Below, piece after piece: positions 3,451 through 61,387 of a stretch of DNA of 64,000 bases. The position numbers were made by a program, and so were the translations under genes. Within the stretch, counting starts at the first letter, position 1, and every line of letters starts with the position of its first letter. Source of the stretch: Bacteroidota bacterium (lineage in GTDB: Bacteria; Bacteroidota; Ignavibacteria; Kryptoniales; JAKASW01); the NCBI GenBank assembly GCA_023381615.1, contig JAMCQL010000080.1, positions 1 to 64,000 of the forward strand. Reading direction: 5' to 3'. The notes under the pieces were generated by a model. The model made no database searches. It saw only the letters and a list, made by a program, of their open reading frames with translations, and was not told where the DNA came from.

Positions 3451-3460
3451 GGAGCCACAG

Positions 3461-4534: not shown

Positions 4535-4536
4535 AC

Positions 4537-13492: not shown

Positions 13493-13538
13493 TGAGTACC
13501 TGTCCTGTCGATTTTTGGGGAAAGAGAGGAGAAATAGA

Positions 13539-15827: not shown

Positions 15828-15887
15828 TAAGCACGAATGAGCATGGAGTATTCAAACAATCAAGGAATCGAAGAGAGGAATATCAAA

Positions 15888-15947
15888 ATGAGAACGACAT
15901 CATGGGCACTTCTTCGGGTACAGATGAGCCTGAGAGGAGTGGAATAG
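15888..15947 (+). CDS. Possible 19-aa leader ORF
   Basis: ATG at 15888 is preceded by AGAGAGGAATATCAAA, a better ribosome site than that of the long gene behind it. The ORF (MRTTSWALLRVQMSLRGVE) ends 2 nt before the ATG at 15950, so ribosomes could re-initiate there. It may be a coupling leader or simply an old signal-peptide start that has frameshifted. Confidence 0.3.
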   Translation: MRTTSWALLRVQMSLRGVE

Positions 15948-15949
15948 CT

Positions 15950-18232: not shown

Positions 18233-18585
18233 CGGGTTTCTTCCGGCATAAATCCAACACTCTCTGTGTCGGGCTCGTATTGATGAACCGAAAATCGGAG
18301 TCACCCCATTTGTGTGATTGTCCAAAAAGAGTCCACTGTCTTTCCCGAATGCTCTTATCGGGAATCTACGTGGGAGAACCGCTGGATTCCCGCTTGAATC
18401 ATGAGGGAATGACATGCGACATGCGGCAGTGGTTCTTCCCTCCTTTTGGGACGGCCTCATTCAAAAGGCAGCGAGTCCAAGCGGTGCCGGTCAAGAAATT
18501 ACTGACTAAATGTGATGACACCAATGTTGAAGCGATTTATGAATTCAGTATCGTTCCACGAAATCCGGGAACGGAGAAAGAAAGG
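18233..18585. other. Intergenic region with palindromic repeat, 353 nt
   Basis: An open frame continues from 18229 but its translation (for example HLCDCPKRVHCLSRML) looks non-coding and reads through repeat DNA. The region holds the inverted repeats described at 18337-18417. No promoter stood out. Confidence 0.5.
18337..18417. repeat. Palindromic intergenic repeat element (REP-like)
   Basis: Contains TTCCCGA-N9-TCGGGAA (7-bp perfect arms) and then GGATTCCCGC..GAGGGAATGACA with a 6-bp inverted pair. The wording TGGATTCCCGC...GGGAATGACA is that of a dispersed hairpin repeat common between genes in many bacterial genomes. It probably acts as transcribed hairpins or is a selfish REP-like element. 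Confidence 0.55.
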
Positions 18586-21471
18586 ATGGATAAAGGAATG
18601 AAGAGAAATAGAAGCATCAAAGTGAAAACAACCTGTTCAACACCTCTTTTGGCACAAGTGATTCTGATCGGTATAGCACTTGTCCTATTAAACTATGGAA
18701 CCACAATAGCCCAGACAACAACACTGGACTATTCCTTCGGAGACAGCGGGACGGTGAGAGTGCCAATCATTTCCGGCGGCTATAGAGACAATGCCACCTC
18801 AGTTGCCATCCAGCCCGATGGGAAAATAATACTGGCAGGATATACGCTAAGCAGTTCCAATTATCAGATGTTTGCTCTAGCGCGCTTGAACGTCGATGGA
18901 ACTTTAGATAGCACCTTTGGCACCGACGGTACTGTCAGTGTAACTCCCAATGGAGTTAGCAGTTATGGATACTCGGTGGCACTGCTCCCAGGTGGCAAAA
19001 TACTGCTCGGTGGATTTTCCGAGGATATGTCATCTTACAGCATTACGTTTGCCCTTGCCCGCTTCGACTCAGAAGGGGCTCTTGACCCTTCATTCGGTAC
19101 AGGCGGCATAGCGTTGGCGAGAATTACTGGTGATGCACAATATCCGGATGACAAAGCCTATTCTATGGCAATTCAATCCGATGGCAAGATTGTTTTAGCG
19201 GGAAGTTCAGTGGATTCATCTTACCACTATGCGTTTGCCGTAGCCCGCTTTGACACAGGCGGGATTTTGGACAGTACTTTTGGAACTAACGGCACGGTCA
19301 GAAATTTTATCGTTGGCGGCGACTCCACTGATGACAAAGCATATTCAGTAGCGATCCAACCGAACGGAAAAATAGTGGTGGCCGGATCTTCGCACAGAGG
19401 TGGTCACTATCCCGCAGATACCTATGCCCTGGCCCGATACAACGCGAACGGCACGTTGGACAGCACGTTTGGCACCGACGGGACTGTCGAGATGGGATAT
19501 GCCAATGGATTTGCGGGCTTGGTGAATTCCGCCGCATTACTGCCTGACGGGAAAATATTGGTAGCGGGACAAAATGGGGTGGCGCGCTTCGACTCGAGTG
19601 GAACTCTTGATAGCACTTTTGGATATGCCGGGATAGCGCTAAACGGGCTGACTTCGGCAGCAGCCTATATCAACGAAAGCTCGATGGGAGTTCAGTCTGA
19701 TGGGAAAATACTTCTCGTTGGAAATTTGCAGGAAGCCTCCTCTCAATTTGTTTTTGCTGCTGTGCGGTTTACTGCGAGTGGCACACTAGACAGCACTTTT
19801 GGCACAAACGGTATCATGACAACGCCTTTTTATGGCAATGGGGGATGGGCAAGTCTCAACGGGGGCTATAATAGCTATGCTACTTCAACAGCATTTCAGT
19901 CGGATGGAAAGATCGTCTTTGCGGGGTCTTCGAGTGGGCCTTCCACAAAGTGGGGATCTGAACAATGGTTCGCGGCAGCACGCTATGTGGTTACTTCTGG
20001 TGTGCCGCCAGCCTCTCAGCTGACTGTTGATTCCACTTCTCCAGCCAATGACGCGGTGAATGTGCCATTGAGGACGCACCTAAGCATCACATTCAGCGCG
20101 CCCTTGGATACGAGTATACATCTCGATAAGGGACTGCCACTATTCATGTTCACCAATGTGGACAGCGCGGACTCTGTAGGATGGAGTAATAATGTAAGGA
20201 CGCTAAACGTTGTGGCATATTTGCAGCCGAATACGGTTTATGCCGTGGGGATATTTGGTGCCTTTGGACTAGGAGGACTAAGATTGCAGAGTCCGTACAT
20301 CGTCCGGTTCACAACGGGAAGTCAGTTTCCATCCGACAGTGTCAGTGGTACGGTGGTCAGCGGAACAACGGGAGTGTCAGGGGATAGTGCAATAGTCGGG
20401 TTAACAATGGTCCCGAATCTTGGACATCTCGCATCAATCCCTCCACTCATTGCAGTCACAGTTGCAGATTCGAGTGGCAACTTTGTATTGCCTGGTGTGC
20501 CCAACGGGACATATTATCCTGTAGCAGCAAAGGATGTTGACGGGGACGGAGTAATAAATCCGTTGACGGGTAAGGATGTGTTTGCCGTTGGAACACCTGT
20601 CGTCGTAAATAATGCAAGCGTAACGGAAGTAGTACTGACATGGACGAGCCTGAAGCCTGTCAATTGGAAACAGGGACTATCCATATCGGATAGCCTGTTC
20701 CTGTCACTTCCACCACACAGCCAGATAAGGTTTGTGTCAGGGTTAGGTGTCGATACGAGCGGGAATTCTATGGAATGGGTAACCGGAGTCACGAACAGCC
20801 TCACGAAGTCAGGATTTCTCGTGACGGCAGGTGCAGTTTCAACTATTCTTCCGATGGACAGCACGATCTACGATTCACTTTCAGCCTTCACAGCATTCAG
20901 TCCAGACAGTGCGGCGAATGCCGGAGTGTTTGTGTCAAATGCAGAGAATGCAGGAGGAAGAACATTCCTGCAGCAATATAATGCCTCTACTGGAGATTCG
21001 GTGTATCTACTGCTATATCTTGGCCAGTTAAGGCGCACTCAACTTGGACCAATTGTACCCGATAGTGGATTATACTGGGGAGCGCAATACGTAGCACTGA
21101 ACCCTAAGACAATGCCGCCGGCTACTACAGCCCTGTTTATTGGTGACTTCAGGACGGGAGCGATACTGGTAGCGACTGGGGTGAAAGACATGACAGAGAC
21201 AATCCCGAAGAGTTACGCACTCTATCAGAACTATCCTAACCCATTTAACCCGACGACAGTTATCAGCTATCAGCTTTCAGCGGTCAGCAACGTGACTTTG
21301 AGAGTGTATAACGTCCTTGGTCAGGAGGTCACAACTCTGGTGAATGAGCGGCAGAACCCGGGAAGCTACACCATTACATTCAACGCGGGCAACTTGCCGA
21401 GCGGGGTGTATTTCTACAGGCTGACAGCAGGGAAATTCATGTCAGTCAAGAAGCTCATGTTGCTCAAATGA
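18586..21471 (+). CDS. Secreted delta-60 repeat protein with Ig-like and T9SS sorting domains
   Basis: 961 aa from the ATG at 18586 (MDKGMKRNRS), with GGAGAAAG upstream. The open frame runs back to 18229 but covers repeat DNA. The signal peptide ends near TTIAQ. Residues ~40-440 hold about seven delta-60 repeats (LDSTFGTDGTV..., SVAIQPDGKIILAG, FALARL), a propeller-forming motif. A Big_5-like Ig domain follows (SPANDAVNVPLRTHLSITFSAPLD) and then a carboxypeptidase-regulatory-like segment. The C-terminus is a T9SS type A domain. Its last ~165 nt are almost identical to those of the gene at 13539. Likely a large surface protein of unknown partner. Confidence 0.83.
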   Translation: MDKGMKRNRSIKVKTTCSTPLLAQVILIGIALVLLNYGTTIAQTTTLDYSFGDSGTVRVPIISGGYRDNATSVAIQPDGKIILAGYTLSSSNYQMFALARLNVDGTLDSTFGTDGTVSVTPNGVSSYGYSVALLPGGKILLGGFSEDMSSYSITFALARFDSEGALDPSFGTGGIALARITGDAQYPDDKAYSMAIQSDGKIVLAGSSVDSSYHYAFAVARFDTGGILDSTFGTNGTVRNFIVGGDSTDDKAYSVAIQPNGKIVVAGSSHRGGHYPADTYALARYNANGTLDSTFGTDGTVEMGYANGFAGLVNSAALLPDGKILVAGQNGVARFDSSGTLDSTFGYAGIALNGLTSAAAYINESSMGVQSDGKILLVGNLQEASSQFVFAAVRFTASGTLDSTFGTNGIMTTPFYGNGGWASLNGGYNSYATSTAFQSDGKIVFAGSSSGPSTKWGSEQWFAAARYVVTSGVPPASQLTVDSTSPANDAVNVPLRTHLSITFSAPLDTSIHLDKGLPLFMFTNVDSADSVGWSNNVRTLNVVAYLQPNTVYAVGIFGAFGLGGLRLQSPYIVRFTTGSQFPSDSVSGTVVSGTTGVSGDSAIVGLTMVPNLGHLASIPPLIAVTVADSSGNFVLPGVPNGTYYPVAAKDVDGDGVINPLTGKDVFAVGTPVVVNNASVTEVVLTWTSLKPVNWKQGLSISDSLFLSLPPHSQIRFVSGLGVDTSGNSMEWVTGVTNSLTKSGFLVTAGAVSTILPMDSTIYDSLSAFTAFSPDSAANAGVFVSNAENAGGRTFLQQYNASTGDSVYLLLYLGQLRRTQLGPIVPDSGLYWGAQYVALNPKTMPPATTALFIGDFRTGAILVATGVKDMTETIPKSYALYQNYPNPFNPTTVISYQLSAVSNVTLRVYNVLGQEVTTLVNERQNPGSYTITFNAGNLPSGVYFYRLTAGKFMSVKKLMLLK

Positions 21472-47069: not shown

Positions 47070-48934
47070 GCAGGTACTTTTCTTTCGCTTGCTTTTCTAT
47101 TTCTTATCGGTATTGAAAAAGTGAAAACGCTGCCGACGTCAATTGTGCTGCCGACCCAAATCCTTCCGCCGTACAACTCCACGATCTCTTTCGCGATCGA
47201 CAGTCCAAGTCCGACCGAGCCGGGGGAAGGATTTGATGAATCGTGAAGTTGAACAAACTTGTCGAACACTTTTTCGAGTTCTTCCGGCTCAATGCCGCAT
47301 CCAGTATCCCTGACGGAAACTATGATATCTTCGCCGTCTGTCGTAGCATCGACGGTTACAATTCCTCCAGAATCGGTGAACCGCAGTGCATTGGTAACGA
47401 GGTTTGAAATTACCCAGGACAGCTGCTGAAAATCGGCGATGAATTCCGGGATGGTGTTGTCCGCGTCGATTACCAATTTCACATTCTTGTCGTTGAATTG
47501 AAGCATCACGGGATGAACCGAAAAATCTATCAGCGATCTTATTTCCACCACGTCTTCTTTTAGTTGAAATTTTCCCGATTCGAGCCGTGAAAGTTCAAGC
47601 AGTTCGCGGACTAACTTTGTCAGGCGTTCAGCGTCTTGCTTAGCGGCTATCAAAAGTTCGCGCTGCTTCTTATTGGCATGTCCAATATGCTCATCTTTCA
47701 AAATATCGAGCGTCATATTTATCGAGGTAAGCGGCGTTCGAAATTCGTGCGACACTCGCGCCATGAATTCAGATTTCATCTTGTCTAATTCTTTGAATTG
47801 GGTAACGTCCTGTAAAATTAAGATGACTCCCGTAACTCTTCCCAAATTATCTTTAGATGAATTAAGTTTTATACGGAAGTATCTGTCCTCTCCGTCAAAC
47901 TTCAACTCGAAATACGGGGGAATGTTCATTGAACTCTCACCGTGAAGATAGCGGTCCACGTACCGGCTAAGCTCTGAGTTCTTCACTACCTCTGAAAATT
48001 TCCTGCCTATCGAGGCTTCTTCGGAAACGCCGAAGACATTTTCAGCAAGCAGATTCATGAGCACGATCCTTCCTTCCTGATCTACAACGACTATCGGGTC
48101 GGAAATCGTGCTGACGATAGCTTCAGATTTTTTCTTTTCGGAAATGAGTTTTTCAATATTAATCTCTTCATATTTTCGAAGTCTTTCGGTCATCCTGTTG
48201 AATTCACGGCTGAGCTCTCCGATTTCATCGTTCGAGTTTATATCGGCATGTACATCGAGGTAGCCTCGGCCAATCTTGCGAACTGTGTCCGTCAATTTCT
48301 CTGCCGGTTCGAGTATGTATTGTGAAAACTGCCAGCTTGCAACAATGCTCAACACTATTGCAAGTAAAGCCGCGCCGAGAACTGCTACGGTCGCTTGGTT
48401 TGAAATGTCGTTGGCTTTCGTCTCTGTCTCGACCATGGCATTATGGTTCATGTCGAGGAGCTGGAAACATTCGTCTTTTATCTGGTTGAAAAGCGGCAGG
48501 ATCCTGTTGTAATGAAAATCTTGCGCGTATGCGTGGCCGTGGGTTCTCAGAATCGTACCAAGAGTATCGGTGGCGTCCGAATATTTCGCGTAAGAGTTGT
48601 TAATGTTATTCAGGATATTGGAGCCGCGCTGTGAGACGTTGGAGGCGACAGCCTGCTGGAACCATACAAAGAAATCTTGATGGCTGTCTTGGAATTGTTT
48701 GTAACCGGAATCGACATTCCCATTCAGCATAACAAGTTGAGCGCTGTTGTCACGCTCGAGCGCTTCGACCATGTTTTGCGCGGCGATTACATTCTGATAG
48801 TTCTGCTTGATCATCGTTGCAATCGCCTGAGTGAGCTGATTGAAATTATATATAGACCAAGCACTAACAATCACATTGATTATCACGAGGACTGTAAACC
48901 CAGCCGCAACCTTTGCTCGAAGTGTACTAAACAT
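47066..48934 (-). CDS. Membrane sensor histidine kinase with HAMP and PAS domains
   Basis: 622 aa. TM1 (about 10-30), an extracytoplasmic helical sensor (35-185) of the 4-helix type, TM2 (about 188-208), HAMP ([21 protein letters not shown]), coiled coil, PAS (about 265-380, [20 protein letters not shown]), HisKA with H in [12 protein letters not shown], and HATPase ([39 protein letters not shown]). It is the partner of the NtrC-type regulator next to it. The sensor signal is not readable. The pair lies beside the cytochrome cluster. Confidence 0.95.
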
Positions 48935-49178
48935 TCAGGGAACTCAACTTTCTTCCTTATCAAGTTTACAAACTACTGAATAATTTGCAATGATTAGACC
49001 TGCTCAGAGCCGATGTTTTTGGATTTTTCAGGGCTTTGAGGACTTGATTTGTCTTTTTGTGCGGAAATATTCCACTAAAATAGCAGGAAAAATGACGCAA
49101 AAAGATGGAGTTTTTCACTCTTGAAGCCAGTTTTGTTTGAAATGGGGCCAATTTAAACGTTTCTTTCTACTTCCGCTA

Positions 49179-49196
49179 GTCGGCACAGTGGTTGAA
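49179..49196 (+). promoter_or_regulatory. Twin promoter-like motif, copy 1
   Basis: GTCGGCACAGTGGTTGAA starts 32 nt before the ATG at 49211. It resembles a sigma-54 site (GGCAC-N5-TTG), although the usual GC of the -12 box is GA. Copy 2 at 53112 is the same apart from two bases, at the same distance from its ATG. Confidence 0.5.
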
Positions 49197-49210
49197 GCAT
49201 ATCAGATGAA

Positions 49211-49627
49211 ATGAGAGTACACAACAGAAAGGCTGCGTTAGGAATCACGACTGATGAGCAAGCCATGTTTGATCTGCTGGCCAAGTTCCTTACCAAAGAA
49301 GGCTATGGCGTAAGGCGTGTGCTCCCCGATGTGTCTGAGAACCAAGATTTGGCTTTGATAATATATGCGCCTACTCGAGAGTTAAGTAGTTCGACAAGCT
49401 GGTTCAAGAATTTGAAAAACAAGAAGCCCGCGCTTCTCGTCGTTCAGTGCTGCAACGAAAATTCCTTTGATGCTCCTGATATTGATGACAATGTGATTGT
49501 GTTATCTGAGTATCCTCTAAACCTGAAACAGTTGCGTGAAACGGTCGTGAGAATACTACAGGATTCTGGTTATGAGGGAGTTCGTCTTGAGAGTGGAGAA
49601 TTTACCGGTGAAGTCATTGCAGAATAA
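49211..49627 (+). CDS. Pseudo-receiver-like protein
   Basis: 138 aa, soluble. The sequence follows a CheY-like pattern: strand 1 ALGITTDEQAMFDLLAKFLTKEGYGV, strand 3 DLALIIYAPTREL, strand 4 PALLVVQCCNE, strand 5 VIVLSEYPLNLKQL. At the phospho-acceptor position (end of strand 3) the usual Asp is replaced by Tyr/Ala, so it should not be phosphorylated in the normal way. It heads the cytochrome operon behind a motif also seen at 53112. It may be a signalling adaptor for the nearby kinase or regulator. Confidence 0.6.
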   Translation: MRVHNRKAALGITTDEQAMFDLLAKFLTKEGYGVRRVLPDVSENQDLALIIYAPTRELSSSTSWFKNLKNKKPALLVVQCCNENSFDAPDIDDNVIVLSEYPLNLKQLRETVVRILQDSGYEGVRLESGEFTGEVIAE

Positions 49628-49921
49628 TATTTTTCTTCGTCCGGTGTTTGATCGTTTTTCGGAAGCAGATGAAATGAGTTTTGTCCACAGGATCTCGCCT
49701 AAGCGAGTCGTCTCTGGAGACTTTCGGACAGAAGTCGCGGTGAAGCAAAAGAGTTTTGGGCTGCCGATTTATCTAAATGCTACTCGCTCAGGGGAAGGCA
49801 CTGCCATATTTCGGCGGCCCAAAAGTATTTATCGCATAAGGAAATATTCGGCTATTTACTAGTCAGAGTATTTCGATAGACTTAGTTTTAAAACTTTCCT
49901 TAAGGTGGTAAAGAGCAGTTC

Positions 49922-51976
49922 ATGGAAGCAAACGATCGAGATTCCGTAAAAAGGGAAAGCAAGAAAAGTTCTTCTTCGCTTTTGCTGCTGCGGGTATTTC
50001 TTCTTATTTATCTATCGTTCATCGCTAGCGCCGCTGCATTGGCGCAGGAAAACAGCGACTGCCTCGGCTGCCATGATGACAAAACCTTACAAGGCAAGAG
50101 GAACGGCAAGACGATATCCGTCTTCGTCGACGAGAAGAAATTGGCTTTGTCTGTTCATGCCGGAGTAAATTGTATTGCGTGTCATGCAGATCTGAAAGGC
50201 TCGGATTTCCCTCATAAGGAAGACGTTGCCAAAGCGCAGTGCACTGCTTGCCATAAGGAAGAGAATAAACAATACGGCGAAGGTTTGCACGGGAAAGCCT
50301 TTGCGCTTAGCGATAAGTTGGCGCCGGCTTGCCAGACTTGTCACGGCTCTCACGATATTCTCCCGGTTAATGATCCACGGTCTGCTGTTGCGCCGCTGAA
50401 AATTCCTTATCTCTGTGGAAGCTGTCACCACGAAGGCTCTCCGGTTCAGTTGCAGTATCACATACCGCAGGATAGTATTCTGGAAAACTATTCCGAAAGT
50501 ATTCACGGCGAAGCGTTGCTCAAAAAAGGCCTTACAGTTGCGCCTACCTGCGCTTCATGCCATTCGCCTCATCGAGTTCTTCCGCATACCGATCCCCGCT
50601 CGACCATTGCAAGAATAAATATTGCCTCCACCTGCACGAAATGCCACGCTGCAATAGAAACAGTTCACAGAAAAATTATTAGAGGGGAGTTGTGGGAAAA
50701 GAAAGCTAACGTCTTACCGGTATGTGTCGACTGTCATCAGCCGCATAAAGTAAGAAAAGTTTTTTATGAGCAGGGGATGGCTGATCAAGATTGCCTGCGC
50801 TGCCACGGCAGGGAAGATTTAAGATCTTCTACCGGCAAGTCGTTATTCGTAAATGTAAACGAGCTTGCTGGCTCGCGTCACTCCAAGATCGCTTGCAGTC
50901 AATGTCATTCAGGCGTTAATCCGTCAAAGTTAAGGCCATGCGAAGGAATAACCGCTGAGGTGGATTGCTCGGTTTGCCATGCTGAGATAGTTGACCAATA
51001 TAAAAAGAGTATTCATGGTCAGCTTTTTGCAAAGAACGATCCGAATGCGCCCAGCTGTTCGGATTGCCATGGTTCGCACGGTGTTCTTGGAAGAAAAGAT
51101 CCTAATTCTCCAACTTTTGCAATCAACATTCCAAACTTGTGCGCAAAGTGTCATCGCGAAGGAAAAAAAGCGGCGATTAGGTATACCGGCACAGAACATA
51201 ACATAATTGAAAAGTACACTGAAAGCATTCATGGCAGAGGACTGATGAAGAGCGGGCTGACCGTAATAGCGACTTGCACAGATTGCCATACGGCTCACCA
51301 CGAGCTTCCACATACGGATCCGGAATCGAGTGTAAACCGAAACAATGTAAGCGCAACATGCGGAGCTTGCCATTTTGGAATCCAAGAACAGTTTGATAAG
51401 AGCGTTCATTCGCCGAAGGTTACAAAAACCGATAAACAACTTCCCGTTTGCAATGATTGTCATACCGCTCATAGAATTCGCCGAACAGATCAGGATGCAT
51501 TTAAGTTGAATATTATGGAACAGTGCGGAAGATGCCATAGCGAAATTGCAAAAACTTATTTCGATACTTATCATGGAAAAGTCTCTCAGCTTGGCTATAC
51601 GAAAACAGCAAAGTGTTACGATTGCCATGGCGCTCACGACATACTTCCCGTTACAGATCCTGCTTCCCACTTAAGCCACCAAAATATTGTGCAGACATGC
51701 AAAAAATGTCATACCGGAGCCAATAGGCAATTCGCTGGATATTTTACGCACGCTACACATCACGATCCCAATAAATATCCATGGCTGTACTGGACGTTTT
51801 TCGGCATGACGGGATTGCTCGTCGGAACGTTCGTACTTGCGGGCATACATACTCTACTTTGGCTTCCACGTTCGATTCAATACAGGAAAGAGTTGAAGCG
51901 AAGATTATCCAGAAAAGATGAAGACGCGGGATCATCTGGCGAAGAGAGTCCGCCTCCGGCGGAGAAACAGCGATGA
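49922..51976 (+). CDS. 19-heme membrane-anchored cytochrome c
   Basis: 684 aa. Signal sequence ends near ALAQ. I count nineteen CxxCH motifs from CLGCH to CKKCH, spread evenly over residues ~45-610. A GKTISVFVDEKKLALSVHAGVNC segment (in parts: GKTISVFVDE; SVHAGVNC) near the N-terminus recurs in the protein at 53449. Many repeats have the form SIHG..L..G...APTC..CH...H.....DP.S, like NrfB/OmcA-type chains. A C-terminal transmembrane helix (WTFFGMTGLLVGTFVLAGIHTLLWL) anchors it. It overlaps the cytochrome b gene by 4 nt, so the two should form one membrane complex. Confidence 0.9.
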   Translation: MEANDRDSVKRESKKSSSSLLLLRVFLLIYLSFIASAAALAQENSDCLGCHDDKTLQGKRNGKTISVFVDEKKLALSVHAGVNCIACHADLKGSDFPHKEDVAKAQCTACHKEENKQYGEGLHGKAFALSDKLAPACQTCHGSHDILPVNDPRSAVAPLKIPYLCGSCHHEGSPVQLQYHIPQDSILENYSESIHGEALLKKGLTVAPTCASCHSPHRVLPHTDPRSTIARINIASTCTKCHAAIETVHRKIIRGELWEKKANVLPVCVDCHQPHKVRKVFYEQGMADQDCLRCHGREDLRSSTGKSLFVNVNELAGSRHSKIACSQCHSGVNPSKLRPCEGITAEVDCSVCHAEIVDQYKKSIHGQLFAKNDPNAPSCSDCHGSHGVLGRKDPNSPTFAINIPNLCAKCHREGKKAAIRYTGTEHNIIEKYTESIHGRGLMKSGLTVIATCTDCHTAHHELPHTDPESSVNRNNVSATCGACHFGIQEQFDKSVHSPKVTKTDKQLPVCNDCHTAHRIRRTDQDAFKLNIMEQCGRCHSEIAKTYFDTYHGKVSQLGYTKTAKCYDCHGAHDILPVTDPASHLSHQNIVQTCKKCHTGANRQFAGYFTHATHHDPNKYPWLYWTFFGMTGLLVGTFVLAGIHTLLWLPRSIQYRKELKRRLSRKDEDAGSSGEESPPPAEKQR

Positions 51977-52869
51977 AAAGTAATAAAGAAAATATTTTTG
52001 AAGCTGCGGTTGAATCATTTAAAGTAAATACCATGGTGCAAGAAGAGCCGCAGTTTCAAAGATTCTCCCGCTTGAACAGAGTGCTGCACGTCTTGATGAT
52101 TATCAGCTTTATAAGTCTGGCGCTTACCGGCATGACGCTGAAATTTTCATACACCGGCTGGGCAGTTATTCTATCTCATCTCTTTGGCGGCTTCGAAACG
52201 GCCGGTTATATTCACCGCTTTTTCGCAGTCGTTATGGTGGGCGCCTTTACTACTCACATCATCAGCATTTCTAAGATGAAAAATAAAGAACACAAGACTT
52301 GGAAAACTTTTATTTTTTCGCCAGATAGCATGATGTTCAATAAGGCGGATCTACATGATTTAGTTGATTCCATAAAATGGTTTTTGGGAATGGGCGAACG
52401 CCCGCAGTATGGACGCTGGACATACTGGGAGAAGTTCGATTACTTTGCCGTGTTCTGGGGAATATTCGTCATCGGTTCAACCGGAATTACTCTCTGGTTC
52501 CCGGAGCTCCTGACTATTTTTTTACCTGGCTGGGTTATCAACATCGCAACGATCATCCACAGCGACGAGGCATTGCTTGCAACCGGTTTCATCTTTACAG
52601 TCCATTTCTTCAATACGCATCTCCGTCCCGAAAAATTTCCGATGGACATAGTGATTTTTTCGGGTAGAATTCCACTTGAAGAATTCAAGCTTGACAGGCC
52701 CGCCGAATACAAAGAACTTTTGGAAAGTGGTGAAATCGAAAAATATCTTGTCGAACCGTATCCACCAATCGTTATCAGAGCGATCAAAGTTTTCGGGTGG
52801 ATAGCGCTCTCTACGGGCTTTAGTATTGTAGTCTGGATTATCTACGCGATGATCTTCGCATACAGGTAA
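51973..52869 (+). CDS. Di-heme cytochrome b (formate-dehydrogenase-gamma/HydC-like)
   Basis: 298 aa with about four or five transmembrane helices. Histidines in FSRLNRVLHVLMIISF, GYIHRFFAVVMVGAFTTHI, IIHSDEALLATGF and FTVHFFNTH are placed to bind two b hemes. The whole is homologous to the C-terminal domain of the 907-aa fusion at 53449 (shared ERPQYGRWTYWEKFDYFAVFWG versus [22 protein letters not shown]). It should exchange electrons between the quinone pool and the 19-heme partner. Confidence 0.88.
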   Translation: MKSNKENIFEAAVESFKVNTMVQEEPQFQRFSRLNRVLHVLMIISFISLALTGMTLKFSYTGWAVILSHLFGGFETAGYIHRFFAVVMVGAFTTHIISISKMKNKEHKTWKTFIFSPDSMMFNKADLHDLVDSIKWFLGMGERPQYGRWTYWEKFDYFAVFWGIFVIGSTGITLWFPELLTIFLPGWVINIATIIHSDEALLATGFIFTVHFFNTHLRPEKFPMDIVIFSGRIPLEEFKLDRPAEYKELLESGEIEKYLVEPYPPIVIRAIKVFGWIALSTGFSIVVWIIYAMIFAYR

Positions 52870-52937
52870 ATTATAGCCTGGCAGAAAAGTCATGAGTCAG
52901 CAAAACGCGCAATAAGTTTTCATCTTTCCTCCTCCTG

Positions 52938-52983
52938 CTGCTGCCAGAGAAAATCTCTTGAACTCTGGCAGCAGTTTCTTTTT
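52938..52983 (+). terminator. Rho-independent terminator
   Basis: CTGCTGCCAGAG pairs perfectly with CTCTGGCAGCAG (12 bp) around a 13-nt loop, followed by TTTCTTTTT. It closes the 49.2-52.9 kb cytochrome transcription unit. Confidence 0.9.
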
Positions 52984-53000
52984 GGAAGTGTGGAAAGTTT

Positions 53001-53013
53001 GCACACAATGTGC
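53001..53013. promoter_or_regulatory. Palindromic operator-like site upstream of the second cytochrome module
   Basis: GCACA-CAA-TGTGC is a perfect palindrome with a 3-nt spacer, about 100 nt before the motif at 53112. Enhancer sites of NtrC-type regulators sit at this distance and often look like this. On the minus strand TGGCAC-N5-GTGCA also resembles a sigma-54 box. Confidence 0.4.
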
Positions 53014-53111
53014 CATAAAACCTCAGAAATTTTCTTTAAGAAAAGAGGCAGTGTTTGAATCGGCATAATATCTGTGAAATTTCGAGCTTTTTACAGTGCA
53101 GAATTTGCAAA

Positions 53112-53129
53112 GTCGGCACAGTCCTTGAA
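53112..53129 (+). promoter_or_regulatory. Twin promoter-like motif, copy 2
   Basis: GTCGGCACAGTCCTTGAA starts 32 nt before the ATG at 53144, as copy 1 does before 49211. Fifteen or more bases of the 18-nt block agree, including GGCAC and TTGAA. Possible sigma-54 promoter or activator site shared by both modules. Confidence 0.5.
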
Positions 53130-53143
53130 CCCAAGGTAGCGAA

Positions 53144-53452
53144 ATGAAACCAGAAGATTTTCTAAAATTCGACAAGCTGGTGGTAAATAAAATAAAGGAG
53201 TTGTTGACTTCGCGCTACAAGATCGCGGTGCAGGACAGCAAGCAAGATGTCCTTGAAGCGGTTTCTAAATTTGATGCCGCCGACTTGAATGAGCTTGCCT
53301 TTGCGCTTCGTCGAATAGAGAAGGGTATCTATGGGCAATGTGTCATTTGCAGGCACGACATTCCGACTGAAGTCCTCGAAGTCAATCTGACTGCAAGGCT
53401 CTGCCCATCATGTCAAATGGCAATGCACGAAAAAAGTGATTCTTCTAGATGA
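53144..53452 (+). CDS. DksA/TraR-like zinc-finger protein
   Basis: 102 aa. A helical N-terminus and LNELAFALRRIEKGIYGQC lead to the zinc finger CVICRHDIP...ARLCPSCQ, the C4 form of the DksA/TraR family. DksA acts with ppGpp in the RNA-polymerase secondary channel. Here it overlaps the following cytochrome gene by 4 nt (ATGA), so a regulator is translated together with a 19-heme protein. A second, different member follows the same gene at 56129. Confidence 0.85.
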   Translation: MKPEDFLKFDKLVVNKIKELLTSRYKIAVQDSKQDVLEAVSKFDAADLNELAFALRRIEKGIYGQCVICRHDIPTEVLEVNLTARLCPSCQMAMHEKSDSSR

Positions 53453-56172
53453 AAAATAGATTTTTATTTCTTCTGCCGATATTCTTTTTATTGATTGGAG
53501 CAGCGCAGTCTTCTTTCGCGCAATCGAACGACGATTGTCTCGCTTGTCATTCCGATTCTACTCTCACGATGACGAAGTCCACCAAAGGCGGATGCGCCTC
53601 TGGCGCAAGTGGCAAGACGATAAGCCTTTATGTCAATGAAAGCGTCTTCAAATCTTCGGTACACAGCGATCTTTCGTGCGTAGATTGTCATGTAGGATTC
53701 GATCCCAACAATATCCCGCACAAGAAGAGCATCACTCCGGTAGACTGCAATAGCTGTCACGAGATTTCGTTTACTGCGAATGGAGAACAACCGAAAGAAT
53801 CTGCGCACGCATCTGTTCAATGCTGCGAATGCCATGGTACACACAACATCCAACCAGCAAACAAGATTGTTACCAGCAAGAAATGTTTATCATGCCATCC
53901 CGCAGAAAAGAAGTTTGTGAATTCGGTTCACGCAAAAGCTAAAATTGGAAATAGAAATTTGACTTGCGAGTCGTGCCACCAGAAAGCCCATGACATAAAA
54001 CTTGTTAGTTTCCTGCGTGGTGTTACGACTGATACTCTCTGCTCGCAATGTCATGAAGACGTGCCCTCCGAAATCAATAACGGAATTCACAAAAAGGTTT
54101 TTGCAAATGGGACATTGACCTGCGTTACCTGTCATACGGCACACGTTGCTCAAATGTCGAAAGATGTGATTTCTGAGAGCGCATGTTTTAAGTGTCACAC
54201 AAATAAGAAACTCTTTAGCGGTATTAATACAAAAGGCGGCGAAGCGCTAACCTCTTTGGTCCAATCTTATCAGCACAGCATCCATGCAGAGTCGCTGAAA
54301 AAAAACGGCAGGGGTGCAACCTGTGTAGATTGCCATGGATCGCATACGATTAAGCCGCCGAGCGACCCCACTTCTCCTGTCAATCGGGCGAATATTGTTT
54401 CAACTTGCGGGAAATGCCATGCCGATGTTGAAAAGCACTATTTAAATTCATCACACGGTCGAGCGTTCAAGAATGGACTCAGTGTTGCTCCTGTCTGCAC
54501 GGATTGCCACAGTGAACACAGTGTTGACTCCATAAGCGATCCGAATTCACCCGTAAGCCGTGCGAACGAGCCAAGGATTTGTCTTGATTGTCACCTTGGC
54601 AACAAAACCGTCTTGAAATTGGTAGGCGTTTCACCGGCATTTCTTGAAAGCATTAAATACAGTGTTCATCTTGTTGCACTCTCGAAGGGAAATCTAAATG
54701 CCGCAACTTGCAGTGATTGCCACGGGGCGCACGAGATGCTACCAGCCGGAAATCCTAAATCGAAGATTTCTAAGAATAATATTCCAACGACCTGTGGCAA
54801 AGCAGGCTGTCATGAAAAAATTATGGTCAAGTACTTCGACGGAATACATGGGAAAGCTCTGCTCAGCGGAAACAAGGATGCTCCAGTCTGCACAAGTTGT
54901 CATGGCGATCATCAGATTCTTGCCCCAAACAATCCGAAGTCTACTGTTTCAAACGCTAACATCGCGCAGGTTTGTTCTAATTGTCACGGGTCAGTAAAAC
55001 TTACTGAGCGTTATGGCCTGCCGTCGCATAGCGTTGGAAGTTATCTTGACAGTTATCATGGCCTTGCAGCACAGGGCGGTATGACCACGGTCGCCAATTG
55101 TGCGAGCTGTCATGGCGCGCATGATATACTGCCGTCCTCTGATCCGAAATCGCCCATTAACAAGGCTAATCTTGCTAAGACTTGCGGAAAATGTCACCCC
55201 GGTGCAGATGCGCAATTTGCAGCAACGCCCGTTCACGTCCTTCCGACTTCGAAGAAGGACCCGTTGCTTTACTGGATTTCTCAAATTTATGTCGTTCTAA
55301 TAATCAGCGTCATCGGCCTAATGTTCATTCATAACGTTTTTGACTTCGGGAAGAAGGCGAAGCGAAAATTGAAGGAACGAAGGAGTCCTATAGCTGAGCA
55401 TAAACACCTGGACAGGAAACTATACGTCAGGATGAGTAAGTCTGAACGCGCGCAGCATATGGCAATGCTCTTGAGCTTCACGCTGCTCGTATTCACAGGC
55501 TTTATGTTGAAGTTTCCGGATTCATGGTGGGTTAAAGCAATTCGTGAAATCGGCGGCGGGGGCGAGCGAGTCTTTGAACTTCGCAGCCTTATCCATCGTA
55601 TCAGTGCCGTCGTGATGATTATGACCACTTTGGTCCACCTTTATTACATACTATTTACTAAGCGCGGACGCCAGTTTATTCGCGATATGTTCCCGAGAAT
55701 AAAAGATGCGAGAGATATTGGTGAAGCAGCGAAGTATTATTTGGGCTTGCAAAATGAGAGACCCAAGTTTGACAGGTTTAGTTACATTGAGAAAACCGAA
55801 TACTGGGCGTTAATCTGGGGAACGATTATCATGGTTGTAACCGGTCTACTTTTGTGGTTCGATAATATTTCTCTCGGGCTTTTCACAAAACTTGGACTTG
55901 ATGCTGCGACTTTGATCCATTATTACGAAGCAATTCTTGCCACTCTTGCGATTTTGGTATGGCACATGTATTTCGTAATTTTCAATCCAGACGTTTATCC
56001 GATGAATCTTGCGTGGCTGTTCGGCACGATAACCGAAGAAGAAATGCTCGAAGAACATCCGCTGGAGCTTGAGAGATTGCAGCAAGAAGAGGAGAAGGCA
56101 GACCAGATTGTCGTCGAAAACGGGAGCAATGAAACCCGAAAGAAAGACGATGAAACAAAGAGAAGCGATTGA
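53449..56172 (+). CDS. Fused 19-heme cytochrome c-cytochrome b protein
   Basis: 907 aa. Signal sequence ends near SFAQ. Eighteen CxxCH motifs (CLACH to CGKCH) and one CGKAGCH (CX4CH) cover residues ~30-600. One TM helix (LLYWISQIYVVLIISVIGLMF) links to a cytochrome b domain (about 660-880; SKSERAQHMAMLLSF, SLIHRISAVVMIMTTLVHLYY, IHYYEAILATLAILVWHMYF). The whole layout equals the two separate genes at 49922 and 51973 joined into one. Related idea: CbcL of Geobacter. The end is acidic and unstructured. It likely couples quinone to periplasmic hemes. Confidence 0.9.
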   Translation: MKNRFLFLLPIFFLLIGAAQSSFAQSNDDCLACHSDSTLTMTKSTKGGCASGASGKTISLYVNESVFKSSVHSDLSCVDCHVGFDPNNIPHKKSITPVDCNSCHEISFTANGEQPKESAHASVQCCECHGTHNIQPANKIVTSKKCLSCHPAEKKFVNSVHAKAKIGNRNLTCESCHQKAHDIKLVSFLRGVTTDTLCSQCHEDVPSEINNGIHKKVFANGTLTCVTCHTAHVAQMSKDVISESACFKCHTNKKLFSGINTKGGEALTSLVQSYQHSIHAESLKKNGRGATCVDCHGSHTIKPPSDPTSPVNRANIVSTCGKCHADVEKHYLNSSHGRAFKNGLSVAPVCTDCHSEHSVDSISDPNSPVSRANEPRICLDCHLGNKTVLKLVGVSPAFLESIKYSVHLVALSKGNLNAATCSDCHGAHEMLPAGNPKSKISKNNIPTTCGKAGCHEKIMVKYFDGIHGKALLSGNKDAPVCTSCHGDHQILAPNNPKSTVSNANIAQVCSNCHGSVKLTERYGLPSHSVGSYLDSYHGLAAQGGMTTVANCASCHGAHDILPSSDPKSPINKANLAKTCGKCHPGADAQFAATPVHVLPTSKKDPLLYWISQIYVVLIISVIGLMFIHNVFDFGKKAKRKLKERRSPIAEHKHLDRKLYVRMSKSERAQHMAMLLSFTLLVFTGFMLKFPDSWWVKAIREIGGGGERVFELRSLIHRISAVVMIMTTLVHLYYILFTKRGRQFIRDMFPRIKDARDIGEAAKYYLGLQNERPKFDRFSYIEKTEYWALIWGTIIMVVTGLLLWFDNISLGLFTKLGLDAATLIHYYEAILATLAILVWHMYFVIFNPDVYPMNLAWLFGTITEEEMLEEHPLELERLQQEEEKADQIVVENGSNETRKKDDETKRSD

Positions 56173-56518
56173 CGATCAATTGAAAACTCACTTCGAATTC
56201 CTCATAAGGAACAAGATAAGCATCATGCTTCAGATGATGTATCTGCATCCCGATGAATTGGTTGATCTTGAGAGCGGTGAGAAATACGTGTGCAGTGTTT
56301 GCGACCTTGAGTATAAACGTTGTGAGGCCGAACCCGATTATAGATGTGAAATTGCGAGAAAACGCGAAACTGAATTCAAAGAACTCGAGCTTGCTTTGAA
56401 AAGATTGAAGGATGGAACATTTGGTTACTGCGAAAACTGTTCGATGTTCATAGGCGCCGAGGAACTAGAAAAAGTGCCTACACGTACTTTCTGCAACGCA
56501 TGCGCAAAGGAAAACTGA
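56129..56518 (+). CDS. DksA/TraR-like zinc-finger protein
   Basis: 129 aa from ATG 56129 (an ATG at 56150 is also possible). It overlaps the end of the fused cytochrome gene by ~44 nt. The zinc finger is YCENCSMF...RTFCNACAKEN, four cysteines. Before it lies a helix (FKELELALKRLKDGTFGYC), the usual DksA/TraR hinge. An extra Cys cluster (CSVCDLEYKRCEAEPDYRC) at about 65-83 is unusual and might bind a metal or sense redox. Confidence 0.8.
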   Translation: MKPERKTMKQREAIDDQLKTHFEFLIRNKISIMLQMMYLHPDELVDLESGEKYVCSVCDLEYKRCEAEPDYRCEIARKRETEFKELELALKRLKDGTFGYCENCSMFIGAEELEKVPTRTFCNACAKEN

Positions 56519-56936: not shown

Positions 56937-57488
56937 ATGCGAACATTAACATTAGTGGTCATGGCAGTTGTCTTAACTTCGGTTGTCTCGATGGCAGGCG
57001 AAGCCAAGCATCAATATGTCGGCGCGGAAGTGTGCGGCATGTGTCACAAGACTGCAAAGAGTGGTGAGCAGTTCCAGAAATGGCAAGCCAGCAAACACTC
57101 GCAGGCGATGAAGACACTCTCGAGTCCCGAAGCATTGAAGATAGCTCAAGCAAAGGGAATCAAGGGAAAGCCGTCCGAGGCGCCGGAATGTTTAGAGTGC
57201 CACGAGACAGCATACAATGCACCCGCTTCATTGCTTGGCCCGAAGTTTAACAAGGAAGATGGAGTTCAGTGCGAATCCTGTCACGGAGCTGGCGGCGATT
57301 ACAAGACAATGTCTGTTATGAAAGATCGTCAAAAGGCGATTGCAAACGGACTGGTTTTAGTCTCCGTTAGCGACGGCAGCGCAGAAAAACTCTGCGAGAC
57401 ATGCCACAATAAGAGAAGCCCGAACTTCAAGGGATTTGATTTCAAGAAAATGTGGGCGGAGATCGCTCATCCGGTTCCCAAGCAATAG
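56937..57488 (+). CDS. Tetraheme cytochrome c554-like protein
   Basis: 183 aa with a signal peptide (ends near SMAG). Four CxxCH motifs: CGMCH, CLECH, CESCH, CETCH. It shares QFQKWQASKHSQAMKTL, DGVQCESCHGAGGDY and the IAHPVPKQ ending with the c554-like protein at 6003. Strong ribosome site AATGGAGG. Its place between the giant cytochromes and the outer-membrane conduit suggests a periplasmic shuttle. Confidence 0.88.
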   Translation: MRTLTLVVMAVVLTSVVSMAGEAKHQYVGAEVCGMCHKTAKSGEQFQKWQASKHSQAMKTLSSPEALKIAQAKGIKGKPSEAPECLECHETAYNAPASLLGPKFNKEDGVQCESCHGAGGDYKTMSVMKDRQKAIANGLVLVSVSDGSAEKLCETCHNKRSPNFKGFDFKKMWAEIAHPVPKQ

Positions 57489-57782: not shown

Positions 57783-59246
57783 GTGAAAGGTTTTCTGAAA
57801 ATAAGGTCAAAAAGTCAAAGAGGAAATCATCACCTCAATTCTATGAATGATAAGATGACTTCTCGAACGCAAAGTAGGCTTAGCTCCGAAATGCGAACAT
57901 TTGCGCCGAAGGCACATCAGCCTTTGGCTGAGAAGTACACAGCACGTGGCTTTCCAGTCATGTTTCTGGGAATGCTTGTCGTTCTCTTCCTTGCTGGAGA
58001 AGCTTGCGCGCAGTCGGTGAGCGGAAGATTCGTTACGACGTTTTATTCATACCAACAGTATGATACGACGAATGCTTCCAAACTAAGTTTACGCGGCTTT
58101 GAAGCTATGCAGTTGAATTTCGGAACAGGGAATTATCAACTGCATACGTATCTTCTTGCGACAAACGATTTTATTACAAAGCTGCCAAACGACCCACTGC
58201 TGCGCGCAGGAAATTTATACTTAGAGGCGCGTAACCTCGGCGGTATCGTCAATCTGAAATTGGGGCGACAGCCGATATTCCAACGTGTCGGTGTTTCCTC
58301 GTTTGACGGGTTGAGCGCCAACGCAAAATTTTTGAATGACAAAATTGTTCTGGTTGCATTTGGCGGCTCACTTCCGCCGCTTGATGAATCTTTCAAACTT
58401 AACTCGAGCCCCAAAGACAATATGCTTTACGGAGCTCAGGCATATTATTCTCCGTTTGAGAATTTCCGCGTCGGCGGGGCGTATGTTGACAAGACTTTCA
58501 AACCGGAAAGTTACTGGGCATTGAGACGTGATAGTCTTAATGCGCCGACCGACACAAGACTCATCTACATCGATCCTTCGTCGGCTGCAAGCCAGTTTGT
58601 CTCCGGCGATTTGTTCTACTACACACAAAAAGTGTCGGGCTACTTCCGATTGGATTATGATTTGAACTTCGCTCAGTTCAACCGTACCGAAGTTACCTTC
58701 CGCTATTCGCCTTTGACTTCTCTGGCGGCGAATGTCGGCTATTTCCACCGTGATTCGCGATTGCCGTTCAACTCGATCTTTTCGGTCTTCGATCACAGCG
58801 GCACCGATGAATACGATCTCGGATTGACTTACTTGTTCGCGCGAAACGTTAACGCATACGGCTCTTTCAGCAAAATTTATTACACGGGCGATAACTCCAC
58901 GCAGCTCACAATTGGAACGAATATTTATTTGTTCTCACTGAATTATTCTCACAATGAAGGATTTGCGGGCAATTTGAATGGAGTCAGCGCTCAGTTCATC
59001 TATCCATTCTGGGACCGAAAATTTGTTTTGATTGCATCTGCTTCGGCAACTAACTACAAAATATTACAGGAGTTGACTTCGACGAATCGTTTATATAGCG
59101 GTTCGCTTGGTCTATCATTCCGTCCGATCAATCTTCTGTCAATTGATCTGCAGGGACAATATTTGCAGAATCCGGTTTATCGAAACGACTTCCGCGGATA
59201 TTTGCGGGTCAACTATTATTTCTTCAAAAATTTTAATTCGTATTGA
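57783..59246 (+). CDS. Outer-membrane beta-barrel (porin-like) of a cytochrome conduit
   Basis: 487 aa from a GTG at 57783 with AAGGAAGGTGG upstream. A signal sequence appears only at residues ~59-77 (VMFLGMLVVLFLAGEACAQ), so the ATG at 57960 may be the true start (~428 aa). The mature part is rich in alternating aromatic strands (FVTTFYSYQQY, YFRLDYDLNFAQFNRTEVTFRYSPL) and ends in an aromatic residue motif, as barrels do. Two multiheme cytochromes follow in the same operon, the porin-cytochrome arrangement for moving electrons across the outer membrane. Confidence 0.78.
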   Translation: MKGFLKIRSKSQRGNHHLNSMNDKMTSRTQSRLSSEMRTFAPKAHQPLAEKYTARGFPVMFLGMLVVLFLAGEACAQSVSGRFVTTFYSYQQYDTTNASKLSLRGFEAMQLNFGTGNYQLHTYLLATNDFITKLPNDPLLRAGNLYLEARNLGGIVNLKLGRQPIFQRVGVSSFDGLSANAKFLNDKIVLVAFGGSLPPLDESFKLNSSPKDNMLYGAQAYYSPFENFRVGGAYVDKTFKPESYWALRRDSLNAPTDTRLIYIDPSSAASQFVSGDLFYYTQKVSGYFRLDYDLNFAQFNRTEVTFRYSPLTSLAANVGYFHRDSRLPFNSIFSVFDHSGTDEYDLGLTYLFARNVNAYGSFSKIYYTGDNSTQLTIGTNIYLFSLNYSHNEGFAGNLNGVSAQFIYPFWDRKFVLIASASATNYKILQELTSTNRLYSGSLGLSFRPINLLSIDLQGQYLQNPVYRNDFRGYLRVNYYFFKNFNSY

Positions 59247-59258
59247 TAGGGGTGCAGA

Positions 59259-60521
59259 ATGAAAAAGATTAGACTCCTTGGAATTGCCGGTATCGCGGCG
59301 CTTCTGTCCATCTCGAACTTGTTTGCCGTTAAAGATGCTCCGAAAATTGACAATTCAAAACTCATTAAGTTTTCTCATAAGTTCCATCTTGGCAGTGACG
59401 TAGGCGCCGCTTGCACCGACTGTCACACCGCTGTAACGACGAGCACAAAAGAGACGGAGTATTTGCTGCCGACAATGTCTACTTGTTATAACTGTCACGA
59501 CCAATCTTCTACCAAGTGCGAGTTCTGTCATACTTCATCGGACAGCGCAACATATCAAGATCTTGTTCAGACTCCAAGTCCGGTCTATTTTTCGCACAAA
59601 CAGCACGCCGGCGACTTGAAACTGAAATGCGAAACTTGTCACCAAGGTTTGGATAAGGTTGAGTATGCTTCTCAGGCGCCTGATGCACTGCCTAAGATGA
59701 CGGTCTGCACCACCTGTCACGGACAGATTGAGACAAACTACAAGGCTGAAAGCGTCAATTACGTTATTAAGGCTGCTCCTGCCGCATGCGATGCCTGCCA
59801 TAAAGATTTAGCCAACTTAGTTCCTGAATCTCATCGTCACGCCGACTTCATGTCGCAGCACAAAGATTTTGTTAACACCACCGGCCCACAGAACGACTGC
59901 AAATCTTGTCATACTCCGACATCATGTCAAGAGTGTCATGATGCCGCCAATATAGCGAAGGATTTGTCTCCGAGCCAGATTTACGTGCCGTCCACTCCTA
60001 CACTTTCTCCGCTGAATACGCATAAGAAACTGATAATACAAAGAGTACATTCGCTGAATTACCGCTTTACTCATTCAATCGATGCGAAGGGACGGGAAAG
60101 CAATTGCTACACTTGCCACGACGAACGGACATTCTGCGTGAACTGCCACAACTCTGAAGCAAACGGTGACCGCATTAAGCCGGTGTGGCATGATGGCGGA
60201 GACTTTGTGACCTTTGGAGTGGGAAGCGGCGGCGGAAGGCACGCAGAATATGCCAGGAAAGACATTGAAAGTTGTGCAAGCTGCCACGATGTACAAGGCG
60301 CCGATCCAACCTGCATAATGTGTCATAACGATCCTGACGGTATAAAAGGTAACGACCCAAAGACCCATTCTGCGTTCTATATGCACGACGTAGATGGAAG
60401 CTGGCATACAGATCCGGGCGCGGTATGTTATACTTGCCATACGGATCCTAACGCCCATCCGGGTGGAAGACCGGGAGTTGGCTTTTGCGGTTATTGTCAC
60501 GGCAGCAATCCGGGAGATTGA
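59259..60521 (+). CDS. 14-heme periplasmic-type cytochrome c of the conduit
   Basis: 420 aa with signal peptide (ends near NLFA). Fourteen CxxCH motifs: CTDCH, CYNCH, CEFCH, CETCH, CTTCH, CDACH, CKSCH, CQECH, CYTCH, CVNCH, CASCH, CIMCH, CYTCH, CGYCH. Several free His residues (KFSHKFHLG, FSHKQHAG, RRHADF-like) resemble the H..H..C..CH pattern of Geobacter-like conduit cytochromes. It sits 12 nt after the barrel gene and is followed at once by the lipoprotein cytochrome. Confidence 0.88.
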   Translation: MKKIRLLGIAGIAALLSISNLFAVKDAPKIDNSKLIKFSHKFHLGSDVGAACTDCHTAVTTSTKETEYLLPTMSTCYNCHDQSSTKCEFCHTSSDSATYQDLVQTPSPVYFSHKQHAGDLKLKCETCHQGLDKVEYASQAPDALPKMTVCTTCHGQIETNYKAESVNYVIKAAPAACDACHKDLANLVPESHRHADFMSQHKDFVNTTGPQNDCKSCHTPTSCQECHDAANIAKDLSPSQIYVPSTPTLSPLNTHKKLIIQRVHSLNYRFTHSIDAKGRESNCYTCHDERTFCVNCHNSEANGDRIKPVWHDGGDFVTFGVGSGGGRHAEYARKDIESCASCHDVQGADPTCIMCHNDPDGIKGNDPKTHSAFYMHDVDGSWHTDPGAVCYTCHTDPNAHPGGRPGVGFCGYCHGSNPGD

Positions 60522-60523
60522 AG

Positions 60524-61387
60524 ATGAAAAATTACTTTAAAATAGTTTTGGTAGTTGCGGTTGGTTTAGCTTTCAACGCTTGCAGCAAGTTGCAGAATAA
60601 TGTTTTGGCGCCAATACAGCCGCAGGGAAATATCCACCCCATTGGTTGGACACAATTGAGCTCCCCGGATTTTCACGGGACTTATATCAAGACACATAAT
60701 TACGATTTGAGCACCTGCACTTCGTGCCACGGCACCGATTTTAAAGGTGGTATTTCGCAGAAGTCCTGTTACACTTGTCATCAGGGGATTTCCGGACCTC
60801 TATCTTGCAACACATGCCATGGCAGTGCTCTGAATCCGGCGCCTCCTAAAGATCTGGCTGGCGATTCACTCACCACAAGTCCTGGAGTTGGCGCTCATCA
60901 GATACATCTCTCAGGGAGCAGTTTCGCTTCATCTGTTGTCTGTTCATCCTGCCACGTCGTACCGCAGTCGGCCGGTCCCGGAATACATCCTGCCGGGACA
61001 GGGAATGCGTTGATAGTTTTCTCCGGTGTTGCAGTAACGCAGACAAACACACCGGGAACTCGTTTCTATGACAGCACAAAGCCGACTATAGTGCCGACTC
61101 CGTCATTTAATCCGCAAACCTTGCAGTGTTCAAATACCTACTGCCACGGCAATTTCAAGAATGGAAACAATTTCTCGCCGACATGGAATAACGTTGGGAC
61201 AGACCAAGATTCATGCGGAACATGCCACGGCATTCCTCCGAACACACCTGTCCACCAAGGGCAGACGTTGCAGACCTGTTATTATTGTCACGAACCGATG
61301 ATAGGCCCCGGTGGCGTCATACAAGACAGCTCCATGCACGTGAACGGGAAGCTCGAACTCTATGGCAAATCGTTGAGTGTTTGGTGA
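60524..61387 (+). CDS. 7-heme lipoprotein cytochrome c (CxxxxCH family) of the conduit
   Basis: 287 aa from ATG 60524. Lipobox LAFNAC. Six CxxCH (CTSCH, CYTCH, CNTCH, CSSCH, CGTCH, CYYCH) and one CSNTYCH. The block LQCSNTYCHGNFKNG...DSCGTCHGIPPNTPVHQG is the CxxxxCH...CxxCH domain first described in Geobacter outer-membrane cytochromes such as OmcB. With the barrel and the 14-heme protein it forms the expected porin-cytochrome trio; it probably faces the outside. Confidence 0.88.
   Translation: MKNYFKIVLVVAVGLAFNACSKLQNNVLAPIQPQGNIHPIGWTQLSSPDFHGTYIKTHNYDLSTCTSCHGTDFKGGISQKSCYTCHQGISGPLSCNTCHGSALNPAPPKDLAGDSLTTSPGVGAHQIHLSGSSFASSVVCSSCHVVPQSAGPGIHPAGTGNALIVFSGVAVTQTNTPGTRFYDSTKPTIVPTPSFNPQTLQCSNTYCHGNFKNGNNFSPTWNNVGTDQDSCGTCHGIPPNTPVHQGQTLQTCYYCHEPMIGPGGVIQDSSMHVNGKLELYGKSLSVW

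Follow-up and report, generated by a model that had tools for sequence, protein, structure and literature searches.

This locus raises the question of how two related cytochrome systems, one split and one fused, came to stand next to each other. The window, by which we mean the whole 64,000-nucleotide stretch analysed, holds a 19-heme cytochrome gene (A) followed by its own cytochrome b gene (B) and, farther downstream, a single gene (C) that encodes both parts in one protein. The initial annotation regarded these genes as one 19-heme plus cytochrome b module present twice and proposed duplication plus fusion or fission as its origin. The features concerned are the following.

49922..51976, plus strand: A, a 684-aa 19-heme c-type cytochrome (19 CxxCH; Pfam Cytochrome_C7/Cytochrom_c3_2)
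51973..52869, plus strand: B, the separate 298-aa cytochrome b partner of A (Pfam PF01292)
53144..53452, plus strand: DksA/TraR-like zinc-finger protein that precedes C (NCBIfam DksA_like match with E 1.7e-10, under the curated cut-off)
53449..56172, plus strand: C, a fused 907-aa protein with 18 CxxCH and one CX4CH, then cytochrome b
54793..54813, plus strand: the atypical heme motif CX4CH of C (CGKAGCH, aa 449-455)
55414..56088, plus strand: the cytochrome b domain of C, about aa 656-880 (Pfam PF01292, blastp, Foldseek)

The coordinates and heme counts of the initial annotation were confirmed. The N terminus of A appears signal-peptide-like by eye, and a single membrane helix lies near its C terminus (about aa 620-650). 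An AF2 model of medium confidence (mean pLDDT 68, pTM 0.45) places a helix at residues 620-668. B contains no CxxCH and overlaps A by the four bases ATGA (51973-51976). The AF2 model of C, likewise of medium confidence (mean pLDDT 73, pTM 0.54), has five long membrane helices. The CX4CH of C aligns with CxxCH in more distant relatives; one CX4CH is also found in C proteins of families f14 and f20 and of one f10 genome, so this feature is not genus-specific. C is flanked by two DksA/TraR-like zinc-finger proteins (window 53144-53452 and 56069-56518), and relatives of one or both adjoin C in many genus mates.

Comparison by blastp matched A to the c part of C (30% identity over 678 columns, E 2e-87, 281 bits) and B to the b domain of C (32% identity over 221 columns, E 9e-33), as had been claimed. 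In an unconstrained local alignment, all 19 heme motifs of A pair one to one and in order with those of C. The stretch ERPxxxRxxYxEK is indeed common to both aligned b domains. When the motif letters were masked, A and C still scored 100 bits by blastp, with 13 of 19 motifs in register (1-4, 8, and 12-19). As controls, we took 50 multiheme proteins of the fetched loci that are not of A/C type and have at least 11 motifs, which scored at most 51 bits, and 200 shuffled versions of C's c part that kept the motifs at their positions, which scored at most 73.6 bits. Hemes 5-7 and 9-11 fall out of register once the motifs are masked, which indicates that homology between the two c parts is not secure in their central portion.

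The pairing of A with C recurs across the class. The two stand together in 60 of 100 fetched class loci (61 with L067), always on the same strand (60/60) and with a median gap of 10 bp; these loci were picked for having A or C, so the figures are not population frequencies. C comes first in 49 of the loci with both genes, and A comes first in 11, namely the window and ten loci of family f10. Among the best 80 named loci listed by one scan, 34 hold both genes, including loci with titles naming Calditrichota, Gemmatimonas, Acidobacteriota, Opitutaceae, KSB1, and Eisenbacteria; A and C are best-hit labels in this set, with which a c-part tree of a subset agrees. That the genes stand in tandem on one strand, within the class and in other phyla alike, would suit a single mixed complex of A-B and C instead of two routes. 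We consider such a complex quite unlikely given that C occurs without A at 28 of the 100 loci, 12 of 12 genus mates included, and A without C at 11, seven of them in family f19, within a set of loci that is not a random sample. The other four of these 11 are not true absences: L067 has C, C of L223 is cut by the contig end, and L087 and L198 carry C on another contig.

Splitting of the c and b parts is labile in both A-B and C. Among class A proteins, 58 of 72 are split from B and 14 are fused; the fused set includes one divergent 23-heme paralogue (L094) and one protein with an incomplete b part (L235), and A rows below 400 bits were excluded from class counts. Class C proteins are fused in 85 of 88 cases, and the three split ones all belong to family f14. 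At least four changes between the split and fused states are required on the quick A tree, two of which are forced by starred branches. The L094 protein (L094:3774-6896; 1040 aa, 23 CxxCH fused to a B-type domain) is the second A-B-like gene of one f22 genome, and a divergent one.

By sequence comparison, A-B and C are anciently diverged paralogues, not products of duplication at this site. The initial proposal of duplication plus fusion or fission therefore stands as to paralogy and as to fusion or fission having occurred, and fails as to duplication at this site. A fused gene that was recently duplicated on the spot, with one copy splitting afterward, would fit the adjacency and collinearity of A-B and C, and yet we find this origin barely credible. 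The copies are only 30-32% identical to each other, whereas identity to orthologues in other families reaches 82% for A and 80% for B; A-B is missing from 12 of 12 genus mates; and the A/C pair recurs across the class. Moreover, in a b-domain tree of 177 rows, all 68 B rows fall in a single clade (100, starred) apart from that of C, and the b domain of the window’s C groups with those of genus mates.

The trees further place A-B within another family. A of the window nests among rows of family f22 and of f17 genus g44 with support of 98 and 99 (both starred), B nests among the same rows (98, starred), and a concatenated A+B tree of 30 rows recovers the nesting in f22 with f17/g44 at 100/99 (starred). 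A rows below 500 bits were excluded from the A tree and b stretches shorter than 180 aa from the b tree. AU tests, for which groups were chosen after the quick trees had been seen, rejected a topology that keeps f22 as one group to the exclusion of the window and g44 (p 2.5e-37); this test excludes g44 too and so does not isolate the window. The test that does isolate the window, in which the seven nearest rows are held apart from it, was also rejected (p 0.005). Genus g44 is itself discordant, as its C groups with f17 (95, starred) and its B with f22 (98, starred), which suggests more than one transfer. The identity gap of B over the b domain of C was considered as sole proof of transfer and set aside in favor of the trees, because the gap of 25.0 points in the source genome is closely approached by other pairs (up to 21.6).

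Genomic context points in the same direction. A was found in 120 of 391 class genomes (E 1e-100 or better) and in none of the 12 genus mates; a relative of the b domain of C (E 1e-60 or better) was found in 197 of 391, including all 12 genus mates, whose genomes are drafts that are 84-100% complete. In nine genus-mate loci, the sequences that flank A-B lie 15-24 bp apart as judged by the ends of blastn alignments, which leaves about 3.1 kb with A-B as extra sequence in the source genome.

49831..52913, plus strand: approximate extent of the insert with A-B (blastn against the loci of nine genus mates)

Another contig, G315:C52, with a length of 5116 bases, matches window 48025-53140 and covers both ends of the insert, with 99.966% identity over 2948 bases of A-B. 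It lies in the bin of another family whose own A-B sits elsewhere (C24), and it is probably misbinned; this near-copy (L079) was excluded from counts and trees. Since G315:C52 ends at window 53140, just before the DksA-like gene, the linkage of A-B to DksA and C comes from one assembly. Composition was tried as evidence of transfer and rejected as uninformative: the GC content of A-B (0.467, 0.43) is like that of its neighbors.

Thus, A-B looks to have been horizontally acquired from another family and inserted upstream of the resident C. Vertical inheritance of A-B with loss in every sampled genus mate would draw on the wide distribution of A in the class, but it is highly unlikely in light of the nesting inside f22, the AU rejection of the alternatives, and the A-first position and order in the window, which differ from the C-first order prevailing elsewhere.

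Two noncoding elements border the inserted genes. A sequence of about 80 nt (window 49744-49830) is present as a single copy in all 12 genus mates, among which it is 88-96% identical, compared with roughly 65-75% for the flanking genes there. Matches were found in 16 of 149 class genomes searched, 13 of them in the genus and three short and weak. The consensus fold is a long hairpin, suggesting RNA structure; no Rfam family matched at the gathering threshold, a relaxed threshold gave two chance-level matches, and RNAalifold detected no base pair in which both partners had changed. On the other side, a terminator-like inverted repeat with a 12-bp stem and a T-rich tail was noticed by eye at window 52927-52985; it is absent from the list of our inverted-repeat scan, which allows loops of up to 8. 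In aligned genus mates, a similar repeat follows closely 3′ of the 80-nt element. In the window, A-B lies between the two.

The 19 hemes of the two proteins require separate consideration because A is internally repetitive. Hemes 1-8 of A align to hemes 9-16 with a score of 512 (maximum of 40 shuffles, 130), so that A reads as 8+8+3.

50051..50758, plus strand: first 8-heme unit of A, hemes 1-8, about aa 44-279 (aligns to hemes 9-16)
50783..51484, plus strand: second 8-heme unit of A, hemes 9-16, about aa 288-521 (self-alignment)

Hemes 9-16 together with hemes 17-19 match 11-heme relatives of A one to one. This was the case for 9 of 9 such forms outside the class, which occur under Acidobacteriota and Verrucomicrobiota titles; most of hemes 9-19 are also matched by forms with 9 hemes (L171) and 12 hemes (L190). 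With C cut at the position used for A, the internal score was 167 (shuffled maximum, 136); the highest-scoring of four cuts gave 210 (shuffled maximum, 145), which indicates a weaker internal similarity of its own. All five 11-heme C forms tested match hemes 9-19 of C by local alignment; their first three hemes resemble the three-heme head of A and C, making heme homology there ambiguous. In the 13-heme C proteins tested (3/3), hemes 1-3 plus 10-19 are present. Thirteen motifs is the count in 51 of 88 class C proteins, from nine families, and other full-length ones have 15-19; one genus mate is cut by a contig end, and one reaches 20 through an extra CX4CH match. The description of one 19-heme module present twice is therefore doubtful, given the many 13-motif C proteins, the 11-heme forms of both types, and the internal duplication of A.

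A and C probably grew to 19 hemes independently. A careful unit tree, built from 64 of 79 units after one long-branch row and 14 A rows were thinned, groups the two blocks of A together (99/96.6, starred). An unlikely, though not negligible, alternative is a single 19-heme ancestor, with the 11- and 13-heme relatives arising by loss and the similarity between the halves of A reflecting gene conversion. The 19/19 register between A and C, the 19-heme C forms in several families and at three loci outside the class (L179, L185, and L186), and the internal similarity of C are all in keeping with such an ancestor, and the AU test did not reject the N-terminal blocks of A and C as one clade (p 0.175). 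Against it stand the clustering of the two A blocks, a self-score of A far above that of C, and the consistent match of 11-heme forms of each type to hemes 9-19 of their own type.

What the two systems do is suggested by their b domains. Among solved b-type chains, sequence searches matched only FdnI, the cytochrome b subunit of formate dehydrogenase-N from E. coli (1kqf chain C). The match is at E 5e-5 by profile and is weak with single sequences (E 0.0016 and 0.0026, the latter for B). Foldseek ranked 1kqf_C first for the C model (E 2.4e-4, TMt 0.76); the fold search with the A model returned no match at E 0.001 or below. Five histidines are invariant in all 177 aligned b domains. Four of these align with histidines of FdnI, which we take to be heme ligands. 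The resemblance to FdnI thus comprises the fold and four aligned His positions; the differences are that the fifth of the invariant histidines in B and C is aligned with no His of FdnI and that FdnI serves a formate dehydrogenase. A further histidine, in the membrane anchor, is shared by all 71 A rows that are untruncated; among 103 C-type rows, a pattern search recovers it in 86. Twelve more C-type rows show HN, and the remaining five without the pattern are f19 13-heme proteins that lack a b domain.

A-B and C probably fit best with the CbcL-like menaquinol oxidoreductases, a likeness that we draw from published descriptions. CbcL of Geobacter sulfurreducens and MtrH/MtoC combine an N-terminal multiheme c part with a C-terminal FdnI/HydC-like diheme b domain, according to the portions consulted of PMC6295460 and PMC9129911. 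C likewise ends in an FdnI/HydC-like cytochrome b, as indicated by PF01292, the profile and fold matches to 1kqf_C, and the conserved histidines. With its 907 aa, 18 CxxCH, and one CX4CH, it falls inside the range of 3-23 CX2CH motifs and 416-1034 aa given for CbcL/MtrH/MtoC homologues in part of PMC6295460, where two homologues from Ignavibacteriae are reported and most CbcL homologues are assigned six membrane helices, four having five. CbcL itself, as described there, has nine hemes and six membrane helices, whereas C has 19 sites and five modeled long helices; moreover, a second, split paralogue adjoins C in the window. A-B departs from the CbcL type in that its c and b parts are separate ORFs in the window rather than one polypeptide.

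In Geobacter, CbcBA is presumably a separate b and c pair. By description in the part consulted of PMC9129911, it is an inner-membrane cytochrome system that acts beside CbcL at lower potential. By analogy with these two systems, A-B and C probably differ in potential or in partners. Both indeed look quinone-linked, as had been suggested initially.

Further multiheme genes follow downstream of C.

56937..57488, plus strand: c554-like multiheme cytochrome (Pfam PF13435; syntenic in relatives)
57783..59246, plus strand: putative outer-membrane porin-like protein (position and synteny)
59259..60521, plus strand: multiheme cytochrome (14 CxxCH in full-length genus-mate orthologues)
60485..61387, plus strand: CxxxxCH/CxxCH multiheme protein (TIGR01904 above cut-off; start probably near 60524)

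The c554-like, porin-like, and two multiheme genes also lie downstream of C in many relatives, and the product of the last appears by eye to have a lipobox-like N terminus. Porin-cytochrome (Pcc) clusters are reported in Ignavibacterium album (PMC4245776; also cited in PMC7399161). The porin-like, periplasmic, and lipoprotein-like multiheme genes recall such clusters, except that the porin identity here comes from position alone, no Pfam family having matched ORF 57783-59246 above cut-off and no porin family having been matched.

These features suggest a route in which the FdnI/HydC-like b domain, either B or the C-terminus of C, would oxidize menaquinol via two b hemes. Electrons would enter the c hemes beside the membrane anchor and run along the chain to the N-terminal heads, and from there they would reach soluble cytochromes and the multiheme proteins encoded downstream, for extracellular reduction. 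The reverse direction would amount to electron uptake. CbcL/MtrH/MtoC homologues occur in both Fe(III) reducers and Fe(II) oxidizers, according to part of PMC6295460, which means that the direction could be reversed. The homology, the extra segment, the nesting of A-B in another family, and the repeated change between split and fused forms are shown here; the quinone site, the direction, the partners, and the division of labor between A-B and C are inferred.

Taken as a whole, the account that we consider likely is that A-B and C are anciently diverged quinone oxidoreductases of the CbcL/MtrH/MtoC kind, that C is the vertically inherited resident and A-B an acquisition from another family of the class, inserted upstream, and that both would deliver electrons to the multiheme set. 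It is tempting, though doubtful, to go further and picture a swappable slot in which A-B has moved between families beside a resident paralogue, between hairpin and terminator. From an 11-heme core, the two proteins would have arrived at 19 hemes along separate paths, with repeated switching between split and fused forms, and the anchor-helix histidine and the fifth b-domain histidine might bind a heme that bridges the c and b parts.

Inner-membrane quinone oxidoreductases are mostly vertically inherited in Geobacter and are good markers of extracellular respiration, as stated in part of PMC12977616. In contrast, one such oxidoreductase was here apparently transferred between families into a resident operon. 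The tandem pair, the switching between split and fused states, and the 11-heme forms offer natural material for relating heme-wire length and covalent linkage to electron flow from quinol. Among the titles listed in our literature searches, none was on a tandem split/fused pair, on a split/fused change in both members, on the internal duplication of A, or on the apparent transfer of A-B into a resident operon.

Other cytochrome modules were observed in these genomes. Window 3004-6575 holds Rieske, cytochrome b, 11-heme, and c554-like genes; all 11 hemes of the 11-heme protein align with hemes 9-19 of A, and in several relatives a group of genes like these four is encoded a short way downstream, within a few genes of C or C-A-B. 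A third c+b pair of the source genome (L009:8985-12831) comprises a 334-aa protein with 5 CxxCH, a 260-aa cytochrome b, and a 688-aa protein with 8 CxxCH. In 5 of 12 genus mates (L046-L050), another module 3′ of C consists of a b-only protein, a 9-heme protein, another b protein, and an 18-heme protein; in L049 the contig breaks off after the 9-heme gene begins. Finally, window 13515-21471 encodes large secreted-looking proteins that, by eye, end in a YQNYPNPFNP-type segment, which we take to resemble type IX secretion C-terminal signals.
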